A DNA stretch of 64,000 bases from Variovorax paradoxus (GTDB taxonomy: Bacteria; Pseudomonadota; Gammaproteobacteria; Burkholderiales; Burkholderiaceae_C), in assembly GCF_009755665.1 (NCBI RefSeq), contig NZ_CP046622.1, positions 930,001-994,000 on the forward strand, written 5' to 3'. The position numbers and the translations under genes are program-made. Positions 34,608 to 36,496 of this stretch are shown in pieces; position 1 is the stretch's first letter, and each line of letters begins with the position of its first letter. A model generated the notes under the pieces. It ran no database searches and was not told the DNA's origin. It was given only the letters and a program-made list of their open reading frames with translations.

Positions 34608-35150
34608 ATGAGGATCAGGATCAATTCGTCCGCGGCCCTGTGGGCTGCAACTGCCGCAGTGGCGCTCGCGACCGCAGGTTGCGCCTCGCGCGGCGGTGCG
34701 GGCGACAGCAGCCAGCCCGCGGCCTCGGCAGCCGCTGCCAGTGCACCCGCCGCTCCCGCGCGCGGCGGCGCAAAGGCCGGCATGGACGCCAAGGGCAACG
34801 TCATTGATTCGTCCAAGGTCGAAGCCGGCAGCGGCCGTACCGTCAAGGGCCTGAATGGCTACGAAGGCGAAATCACGGGCGTTCCCGCGCGCAACAGCAA
34901 GTTCTCGCGCCTGCAGATCGGCATGAGCGCCAAGCAGGTGACCGACCTGGCCGGCCAACCGACAGACCAGGGCGCCTACGTCACGGGCAAGGCCTTCATT
35001 CCGTTCTACTTCGGCAGCGACCGCCACCGTTACGAGATGACCTACAAGGGCCAGGGGCGCCTGGTTTTTGCGGGTGGCGGCATGGGCGACTACTCGGGCG
35101 GCAACCTGATCTGGATCATCCACAACCCCAACGAATCGGGCTACCGCTAA
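34608..35150 (+). CDS. BamE/SmpA-like outer-membrane lipoprotein
   Basis: The 180-residue precursor has a lipoprotein signal ending in LATAGC, with the lipidated Cys near residue 25, followed by a disordered Ala/Gly/Pro segment (about 28-60). The C-terminal part (about 95-180) starts SRLQIGMSAKQVTDLAGQP, the pattern of the SmpA/OmlA (BamE-like) fold. It may be an accessory envelope lipoprotein; the true BamE partner of BamA is normally shorter, so I do not give a gene name. A Shine-Dalgarno in a hairpin lies upstream and a strong terminator downstream. Confidence 0.8.
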   Translation: MRIRINSSAALWAATAAVALATAGCASRGGAGDSSQPAASAAAASAPAAPARGGAKAGMDAKGNVIDSSKVEAGSGRTVKGLNGYEGEITGVPARNSKFSRLQIGMSAKQVTDLAGQPTDQGAYVTGKAFIPFYFGSDRHRYEMTYKGQGRLVFAGGGMGDYSGGNLIWIIHNPNESGYR

Positions 35151-35160
35151 GCCGTTCGGA

Positions 35161-35188
35161 GCCGGGCTTTTGCCCGGCTTCTTGTTTT
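35161..35188 (+). terminator. Intrinsic terminator after the lipoprotein gene
   Basis: GCCGGGC-TTTT-GCCCGGC followed by TTCTTGTTTT, starting 10 bases after the stop codon. Confidence 0.9.
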
Positions 35189-35191
35189 CCG

Positions 35192-35200
35192 TGCTACATT
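35192..35200 (+). promoter_or_regulatory. Possible extended -10 promoter for the aroG leader
   Basis: TGCTACATT is an extended -10 (TGn plus TACATT). It ends 8 bases before the leader peptide ATG at 35209, so the leader mRNA may be leaderless. TTGCCC at 35170-35175 is a weak -35 candidate lying inside the preceding terminator stem. Confidence 0.4.
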
Positions 35201-35208
35201 TCGCCCAC

Positions 35209-35283
35209 ATGTCCGCCCTCCGCGCTTATTTCTTTGCCTACTTTTGGTTCCCGGTTTCCGGCGGACGAGAGGCGAGCGCGTAA
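35209..35283 (+). CDS. aroG leader peptide rich in Phe, Tyr and Trp
   Basis: A 24-residue reading starts at ATG 35209 and stops at TAA 35281. Residues 7-14 read YFFAYFWF: seven aromatic residues in eight codons (35227-35250; 4 Phe, 2 Tyr, 1 Trp). This is the layout of an amino-acid biosynthesis leader peptide, here before DAHP synthase, the first enzyme of the aromatic pathway. No Shine-Dalgarno is visible. The product is presumably not functional; ribosome stalling on it would report low aromatic aminoacyl-tRNA. Confidence 0.8.
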   Translation: MSALRAYFFAYFWFPVSGGREASA

Positions 35284-35340
35284 AGCAAACGAACACCCTC
35301 CCAGAACCGCCGGTGGCCCAGAGCCCCCGGCGGTTTTTTT
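35213..35340 (+). promoter_or_regulatory. Transcription attenuator of aroG
   Basis: Four complementary segments are visible. Segment 1 is CCGCC (35213-35217), 2 is CCGGCGG (35258-35264), 3 is AACCGCCGG (35305-35313) and 4 is CCGGCGGTT (35327-35335) followed by a T run to 35340. 3:4 makes an intrinsic terminator with 9 perfect pairs. 2:3 makes an alternative antiterminator with 7 pairs. 1:2 can pair with 5. The aromatic codons (35227-35250) lie between 1 and 2, as in classic trp or phe attenuators. Confidence 0.8.
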
Positions 35341-35377
35341 ATGCCCTGACGATTTCACTCCAACAAGGAAAAGCACC

Positions 35378-36496
35378 ATGAGCACGAACACTGCCCCCGC
35401 CAGCGACAGCTGGTATGCGAGCGTCGAAAAAACCAGCAAGACCGACGACGAACGCATCAAGGACATCAACGTGCTGCCCCCTCCCGAACATCTGATCCGC
35501 TTCTTCCCGATTCGCGGCACGCCGGTCGAAACGCTGATCGAGGGCACCCGCCGCAACATCCACAACATCATGGCCGGCAAAGACGACCGGCTGCTGGTGA
35601 TCATGGGGCCGTGTTCCATTCACGACCCGGCCGCCGCGCTCGACTACGCCCGCCGCCTGAAGGTGGAGCGCGAAAAGTACGCCGGCACGCTGGAGATCGT
35701 GATGCGCGTGTACTTCGAGAAGCCGCGCACCACGGTGGGCTGGAAGGGCCTCATCAACGATCCGTACCTGGACGAAAGCTACCGCATCGACGAGGGCTTG
35801 CGCATTGCGCGCCAGCTGCTCATCGACATCAACCGGCTCGGCCTGCCCGCAGGCAGCGAGTTCCTCGACGTGATCTCGCCGCAATACATCGGCGACTTGA
35901 TCGCCTGGGGCGCCATCGGTGCGCGCACCACCGAAAGCCAGGTGCACCGCGAACTGGCCTCGGGGCTTTCCGCGCCGATCGGCTTCAAGAACGGCACGGA
36001 CGGCAACATCCGCATCGCCACCGATGCCATCCAGGCGGCGGCGCGCGGCCATCACTTTCTGTCGGTGCACAAGAACGGCCAGGTGGCCATCGTGCAGACC
36101 AACGGCAACCGCGACTGCCACGTGATCCTTCGCGGCGGCAAGGCGCCCAACTACGATGCAGCGAGCGTCGAGGCCGCCTGCAAGGACCTCGAAGCCGCCA
36201 AGCTGCCGCCCACGCTGATGGTCGACTGCAGCCATGCCAACAGTTCCAAGCAGCACCAGAAGCAGATCGACGTGGCGAAGGACATTGCCAATCAGATCGC
36301 GGGCGGATCGAACCGCGTGTTCGGCGTGATGGTCGAGAGCCACCTGCAAGCGGGTGCCCAGAAGTTCACGCCGGGCAAGGACCAGATCGCGGGCCTCGAA
36401 TACGGCAAGAGCATCACCGACGCCTGCCTGGGTTGGGACGATTCGGTGCAGGTGCTCGACGTGCTGTCGCAGGCCGTCAAGCAGCGCCGGGGATAA
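35378..36496 (+). CDS. aroG: AroG, 3-deoxy-7-phosphoheptulonate (DAHP) synthase, class I
   Basis: This enzyme condenses phosphoenolpyruvate and erythrose 4-phosphate, the entry step to aromatic amino acids. ATG 35378, with AAGGAA just upstream, gives 372 residues. The class I-alpha features are present: IRFFPIRGTPVETL, VIMGPCSIHDP with the metal-binding Cys, MRVYFEKPRTTVGWKG, DCSHANSSKQ and GVMVESHLQ. Which aromatic amino acid inhibits it cannot be told safely from sequence alone. Expression is probably controlled by the attenuator at 35213-35340. Confidence 0.95.
   Translation: MSTNTAPASDSWYASVEKTSKTDDERIKDINVLPPPEHLIRFFPIRGTPVETLIEGTRRNIHNIMAGKDDRLLVIMGPCSIHDPAAALDYARRLKVEREKYAGTLEIVMRVYFEKPRTTVGWKGLINDPYLDESYRIDEGLRIARQLLIDINRLGLPAGSEFLDVISPQYIGDLIAWGAIGARTTESQVHRELASGLSAPIGFKNGTDGNIRIATDAIQAAARGHHFLSVHKNGQVAIVQTNGNRDCHVILRGGKAPNYDAASVEAACKDLEAAKLPPTLMVDCSHANSSKQHQKQIDVAKDIANQIAGGSNRVFGVMVESHLQAGAQKFTPGKDQIAGLEYGKSITDACLGWDDSVQVLDVLSQAVKQRRG

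Follow-up and report, generated by a model that had tools for sequence, protein, structure and literature searches.

The stretch of DNA analyzed here (the window) comprises 64,000 nt of the Variovorax paradoxus genome, positions 930,001 to 994,000 of NZ_CP046622.1, and all features described below lie on its plus strand. The aroG gene (35378 to 36496), coding for a type I DAHP synthase of 372 amino acids (TIGR00034, PF00793), is preceded by a probable Shine-Dalgarno sequence, AAGGA, at 35365 to 35369, and is the gene that the leader element would regulate. On the 3' side of the gene upstream (34608 to 35150), a terminator-like hairpin (35158 to 35181) parts that gene from the aroG unit. The AroG of the window shares 98 and 97% identity with the proteins of two named Variovorax records. 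It was the single match to type I DAHP synthase in the genome at an E value of ≤1e-30 and, since no type II enzyme was found there, the only DAHP synthase found in this genome.

Upstream of aroG lies a short ORF (uORF; 35209 to 35283) of 24 codons, MSALRAYFFAYFWFPVSGGREASA and a stop, that has no Shine-Dalgarno sequence. Its codons 7 to 14 (35227 to 35250), the putative control codons, read Tyr Phe Phe Ala Tyr Phe Trp Phe (YFFAYFWF), so that direct reading bears out the original prediction of a 24-codon ORF with seven aromatic codons in eight positions. Such a run is exceptional in its surroundings: among 682 ATG ORFs of 10 to 60 codons on both strands of the window, only the aroG uORF has at least five aromatic codons in eight (the runner-up has four), and none of 2,196 ORFs in 210 kb flanking aroG loci does. 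Attenuators of the trp/his/phe type are marked by a leader ORF in which end-product codons abound; here this trait is kept in relatives, and aroG acts in the biosynthesis of the very amino acids that the run encodes, as in other members of this class.

We evaluated the conservation of the uORF in 80 named relatives fetched by their AroG protein. A uORF with at least four aromatic codons in eight was found before aroG in 75 of them, starting about 120 to 240 nt upstream of the AroG match, and within the genus it precedes 33 of the 34 aroG orthologues. The leader codons are therefore conserved as aromatic, as the original prediction would have it. The five relatives that lack the uORF comprise one region at a contig end (L058) and four Polynucleobacter records (L100, L105, L106 and L108); records under this genus name are split, since L086 and L094 do carry the leader. 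The exception within the genus is L011, a Variovorax region with one extra T in the run that shifts the frame, which could stem from faulty sequencing or from genuine loss of the leader peptide. When all 141 upstream regions are considered, paralogues and remote families included, an aromatic uORF is present in 115; it is absent from the two copies read of the second Variovorax AroG paralogue (57 to 58% identical; L132 and L133). Phe, Tyr and Trp occur together in 97 of the 141 leaders. Trp is missing from 42, a point against the attenuator reading.

To follow the leader beyond these records, a covariance model was built from 84 leaders. At an E value of ≤0.001 it matched 289 of 299 genomes of the family (261 of 267 good-quality genomes; 137 of 141 genera). 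Across the order, 126 of 300 genomes matched at ≤0.01, many of them with the terminator only, and 74 of 300, from 14 families, at ≤1e-5, where 73 matches cover the whole model and one begins at position 39. For these 74 strong matches, 61 loci were checked for aroG and five more had been read as AroG upstream regions. The gene was present at 52 of 52 strong-match loci, the window's own included, versus 0 of 17 weak-match loci, and in 33 of 38 further stretches, the other five being weak matches (E values above 1e-4). The remaining 226 genomes of the order have no strong match and some of them have an AroG without an aromatic uORF, which also counts against the attenuator reading. Outside the order but within the class, four genomes (f63 and f68) gave full-length matches at E values of ≤3e-10 with aromatic uORFs, and the next ORF looked AroG-like by eye in three. 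A plasmid search with the leader gave no match.

An extended −10-like element, TGCTACATT, located at 35192 to 35200 and found both in the sequence and in relatives, ends 8 nt before the uORF ATG, so that the transcript would be expected to start at or next to the A of this ATG (35209). The element was recognized through the comparison of leaders, in which no conserved −35 was found; a strict sigma-70 scan found no promoter. The motif TGnTAnnnT ends 6 to 9 nt 5' of the uORF ATG in 79 of the 80 leaders labeled f1, a label covering the family of the window and named close relatives for which this family was assumed. It also precedes the uORF in 8 of 8 leaders of f23, 5 of 7 of f4, 4 of 6 of f44 and the single one of f40, and was not found before it in f32, f8, f11 and f3. 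At a distance of 6 to 8 nt, the motif stands before only 2 of the 858 plus-strand ATGs of the window, one of them the uORF start. The bases directly 5' of the ATG are mostly C, and Shine-Dalgarno-like 4-mers appear in 1 of 87 leaders. Judging from these sequence features, the uORF is probably leaderless.

The RNA from the end of the run onward can be divided into four segments. Segment 1 (about 35236 to 35254), delimited from the minimum free energy fold starting at the ATG and from the partner-swap test described below, takes in the run end and the next codons (GCCU, CUU and GUUCCCGG) and has segment 2 as partner. Segment 2 (CCGGCGGACGAGAGGC, 35258 to 35273), defined by the folds and by conservation of GGCGG, can pair with either segment 1 or segment 3. 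Segment 3 (35297 to 35313) includes CCUC at 35297 to 35300 and CCGCCGG at 35307 to 35313, and pairs with segment 2 to form the antiterminator or with segment 4 (CCGGCGGUUUU, 35327 to 35337; fold and partner-swap test) to form the terminator. An attenuated RNA is predicted to end in the T run at 35334 to 35340 and to measure about 130 nt. The main stem of the terminator joins 35303 to 35313 with 35327 to 35337 in 11 bp (one of them G-U), with an inner stem of 3 bp; the hairpin and T run originally proposed thus stand, and the proposed count of nine pairs does not. A simple terminator scan, with a loop limit of 8 nt, did not list this hairpin. CCGGCGG at 35258 to 35264 is, as had been noted, a copy of the terminator 3' arm, identical to 35327 to 35333. 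The antiterminator extends beyond this repeat, since GAGG (35269 to 35272) with CCUC (35297 to 35300) and an apical stem join the CCGGCGG:CCGCCGG helix. By eye, in the folds inspected for 46 of the 87 leaders, it consists of up to three stacked helices with an apical stem of variable sequence, and in folds of 20 leaders from the ATG a hairpin of the run end and spacer with segment 2 competes with it. The region from 35180 to 35345 (166 nt) folds with a z score of −3.96 against dinucleotide shuffles, and its 3' part alone (35255 to 35345) with −1.65, 13 of 200 shuffles folding equally well.

These elements are retained in the other leaders. Among the 115 upstream regions that carry an aromatic uORF, an intrinsic terminator was found in 114, as expected of an attenuator. 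The stretch separating run and terminator contains GGCGG in 125 of 138 leaders versus 15% of shuffled regions. In the 38 leaders with A in place of G next to the segment 3 core, U is found at segment 2 in 23 (versus 5 of the 84 with G) and at segment 4 in 36; these joint base changes in segments 2, 3 and 4, together with the 2:3 helix, describe an antiterminator that excludes the terminator. Segment 2 falls in different reading frames of the uORF (69, 16 and 2 of 87 nonredundant leaders), and sometimes the stop codon comes directly 3' of it. Since its frame varies, it is the RNA and not the peptide that is conserved behind the run. Three leaders of f44 (L235, L230 and L240) have terminator and segment 2, yet their best eight codons hold only one, four and three aromatics, respectively; amino acid sensing has possibly been lost there or the start wrongly chosen.

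The varying frame bears on whether a peptide could act as the sensor. In the close group of leaders the run end is well conserved, with YFWFS or YFWFP in many of them, which would suit an arrest peptide like TnaC, where the nascent chain stalls the ribosome upon sensing a ligand. Here nascent YFWFS would respond to a free amino acid or other ligand, and the stall would govern termination. We regard this as highly improbable, because across families the run varies in order and composition yet stays aromatic throughout (FYFYFFWHL, FFFFYFSYS, YFFWFWFP), as codon counting predicts, because the part kept behind the run is RNA, in differing frames, and because induction of a biosynthetic gene by its end product makes little sense. 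Another peculiarity of the runs is codon usage. TTT is about twice as frequent as TTC in the 141 leaders (376 versus 195), unexpected if these genomes are GC-rich, as they appear to be, and it may reflect avoidance of unwanted pairing or slow decoding. The same preference would be in keeping with control independent of amino acids, in which translation speed or another signal, such as a riboswitch ligand or a protein, is read and aromatic codons are merely slow. However, the run codes for the pathway's own end products, no family of Rfam 15 gave a match at gathering scores in the window, and inspection of the leader alignment by eye revealed no conserved element besides promoter, ORF and switch helices, which makes such control extremely unlikely.

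RNAalifold on a plain MAFFT alignment recovered the terminator only, and helix coevolution was afterward assessed with an alignment-free partner-swap test, in which 5' helix halves are joined to 3' halves from other families (360 permutations). Own halves were more stable than swapped ones, with z scores of −6.4 for helix 1:2, −8.3 for 2:3, −4.0 for the inner 2:3 helix and −12.9 for 3:4; when segment 2 was picked regardless of segment 3, the values were −5.8, −6.9, −3.9 and −11.6. In none of the 360 permutations did swapped halves match the stability of the own ones for 1:2, 2:3 or 3:4. The 1:4 combination, used as a negative control, gave no signal (z of +1.5, or +0.6 with segment 2 chosen independently). 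The values for 1:2 support a protector hairpin with segment 1 at the control codons, as attenuators of this class have. The codons of the run alone showed no clear coevolution with segment 2 (z of −1.5; 30 of 360 permutations), which counts against the model. An earlier version of the test on 87 leaders had smaller margins, with own halves below the swapped mean in 61 (1:2), 58 (2:3) and 76 (3:4) leaders. Relatedness within families may inflate the z scores but, judging by the negative controls, does not seem to create the signals. Helices 1:2, 2:3 and 3:4, which are mutually exclusive, coevolve between families. This is the covariation in relatives that had been proposed as a check of the leader, and it includes the alternative pairing of the repeat copy with the terminator 5' arm.

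One part of the original scheme fared differently. It had placed segment 1 at CCGCC (35213 to 35217), close to the uORF start. This motif is present and can pair in the window, where the fold from 35180 (29 nt before the ATG) joins UGUCCGCC (35210 to 35217) with GGCGGACG (35260 to 35267), and where the core of segment 2 has a probability of 0.40 of being paired with leader sequence as far as the run end. That this fold, which includes bases 5' of the probable start, shows the CCGCC pairing instead of 1:2 is a point against the present model. Over 87 leaders, in contrast, pairing of the segment 2 core with the 5' leader amounts to 0.17 versus 0.28 when the 5' part is shuffled, the coevolution z score is +0.8, and in the earlier version of the swap test own halves lay below the swapped mean in 41 of 87. 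As a conserved segment 1, CCGCC was rejected on these grounds; it looks like a local pairing, and the supported segment 1 is the one at about 35236 to 35254. A caveat raised with the original scheme, that segment 2 lies so close to the aromatic codons that stalling on the last ones would partly cover it, is answered by a segment 1 made of run end and spacer, since a stall on the run covers segment 1 and frees segment 2.

The dependence of the fold on ribosome position was modeled in 138 leaders, with the RNA taken up to segment 3 and a ribosome footprint reaching 12 nt past the first base of the A-site codon. Pairing of segment 3 with upstream RNA (antiterminator) averaged 0.96 with the ribosome on the run, 0.55 on the first codon after it, 0.27 on the second and 0.15 at the stop codon, a drop that is partly geometric, because a ribosome further along covers segment 2. 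These folds place the last aromatic codon about as far 3' as possible without covering segment 2. A stall before the run also gave 0.83, and the value without ribosome was 0.49, both of which count against the model. In the window, the antiterminator reached 0.80 to 1.00 on the run, 0.07 on the two codons after it, 0.06 at the stop codon and 0.07 without ribosome; it rose again to 0.64 and 0.72 at codons 17 and 18, behind the run, another point against the model. Without ribosome it is near 1 in f32, f13 and f3, and hence 1:2 is weak there. When the full leader is folded at equilibrium, the terminator wins in nearly every state, the stalled ribosome included (mean probability of 3:4 from 0.91 to 1.00), and the switch decision must therefore be kinetic.

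The computed anatomy, conservation, place before aroG, helix coevolution and fold-ribosome dependence make it very likely that aroG is controlled by a transcription attenuator that works through ribosomes, like those of trp and phe, and that senses Phe, Tyr and Trp through their codons. Attenuation of aroG, as first proposed, is supported above all by conservation, location and coevolution. The start site, translation, stalling, termination and amino acid response that we infer would combine as follows. RNA polymerase would start at or next to the uORF ATG, and ribosomes would load on the leaderless 5' end. When charged tRNA for Phe, Tyr or Trp ran short, the ribosome would stall on the run and cover segment 1, the emerging segment 3 would be captured by segment 2, the 3:4 terminator would not form and aroG would be transcribed. 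With ample amino acids, the ribosome at the stop codon would cover segment 2 or let 1:2 form; in either case the 3:4 terminator would follow, and transcription would end near 35340.

The terminated RNA of about 130 nt predicted here, with its probable leaderless ORF, resembles rnTrpL (PMC7298713), and it could be asked whether an ordinary terminator simply releases a short RNA that acts in trans, as an sRNA or via the encoded peptide, while aroG in cis is hardly affected, in the manner of rnTrpL/peTrpL of Sinorhizobium meliloti but without attenuation. Under this view, neither the aromatic codons, nor the antiterminator with its coevolution, nor the position in front of aroG would find an explanation, so we consider it very improbable as the sole function. 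A role in trans may nevertheless exist alongside attenuation.

Several known systems share features with this attenuator. In the E. coli trpL and pheL leaders, segment 1 overlaps the control codons, the 1:2, 2:3 and 3:4 helices are exclusive, and the terminator ends in a T run. The aroG leader resembles these trp and pheA attenuators (PMC11802643) in its leader ORF with end-product codons, its segment 1 at the control codons, its exclusive helices and its T-run terminator. It differs from them in that its codons stand for three amino acids rather than one, the regulated gene is that of DAHP synthase, the uORF has no Shine-Dalgarno sequence and is probably leaderless, and there is no Rfam match. 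In C. glutamicum, an attenuator at aroR-aroF was reportedly described by Neshat et al. in 2014. There, a leader peptide with Phe-Tyr-Phe precedes a DAHP synthase gene, and stalling raises transcription (PMC11802643). The likeness, compared on function alone, is an aromatic leader peptide before a DAHP synthase gene; the differences are that C. glutamicum is an actinobacterium and that the review PMC11802643 names only Phe-Tyr-Phe. With this precedent, the principle of DAHP synthase attenuation is established, whereas the original prediction had not taken attenuation of aroG to be so. For Burkholderiales, searches of the open-access literature gave no description of an aroG attenuator. The third relative is trpL/trpE(G) of S. 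meliloti, whose leader ORF lies at the transcript 5' end (leaderless) and which uses attenuation without repression of transcription, as described in PMC7298713. Attenuation without repression and an ORF that begins with the transcript, mapped there and predicted for aroG, would be the common traits; S. meliloti is an alphaproteobacterium and its leader reads Trp only and precedes trpE(G). The trp/phe mechanism and DAHP synthase attenuation are, in summary of these comparisons, known; the three amino acids read and the probable leaderless ORF are what is special. The leader may overlap the "Burkholderiales-1" motif named in a table of PMC2864571, and its RNA may be among the 82 short 5' untranslated region transcripts of Burkholderia cenocepacia tabulated in PMC5688073.

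As the valve of the shikimate pathway, DAHP synthase is classically controlled by TyrR and TrpR; this textbook control was not detected in the genome of the window. TrpR was not found among 31 genomes of the genus and order; a TyrR-type helix-turn-helix was not found in the window's genome, and it matched in 6 of the 31, above the cutoff in 2. The E. coli DAHP synthase genes are regulated by both proteins, which PMC5343134 describes as conserved in gammaproteobacteria and absent from other classes. In an order without TrpR and mostly without TyrR, as these 31 genomes have it, an attenuator on a leaderless transcript could be what mainly, perhaps solely, governs shikimate pathway entry at the gene level across much of the order; lacking a 5' untranslated region, the transcript could take up its first ribosome directly after the polymerase, and the released RNA and peptide might also act in trans as in S. 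meliloti; we put this forward tentatively, with somewhat less than even confidence. If the reading is true, a large group of Betaproteobacteria would open this valve through Phe, Tyr and Trp codons on one RNA, which would be both an RNA family new to annotation and a directly testable three-input attenuator. It would also offer a means to engineer such hosts for aromatic production, along with hundreds of genomes in which to compare how attenuators evolve. Since its start is probably leaderless, it would be well suited to testing how leaderless initiation and attenuation work together.

A few loci at the edges of the distribution deserve mention. L051, a record named Solimonas sp. SE-A11, closely resembles the window's group in both leader and aroG, and L250 to L253, from two families that do not belong to the order, carry related leaders. 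Transfer, an ancient origin or wrong assignment of the records could each account for these cases. In f28, L245 and L246 have an aromatic uORF (MNTFSAVFNAYFYWYRSS...) followed by a GC-rich hairpin; no aroG match was found in the stretch and the next ORF had no Pfam match, so that this is possibly an aromatic attenuator of another gene. Among 15 genus copies of a leuA-like gene, no Leu uORF was found (L270 has an uncertain start). Leu-rich uORFs do occur in L170 (1501 to 1635), L284 and L287 (MNFARAFLLLALCRHGQVD, MARFTSSLFAIATPVSDLILLGLLLRPAR and MNPVFVSTPHTTLYPDAYLGSLLLRLAR, respectively), before genes that we take to be leuA-like. A −10-like box lies 6 to 7 nt before the ATG of these three uORFs, and Burkholderiales may use leaderless ORFs in leaders more generally.
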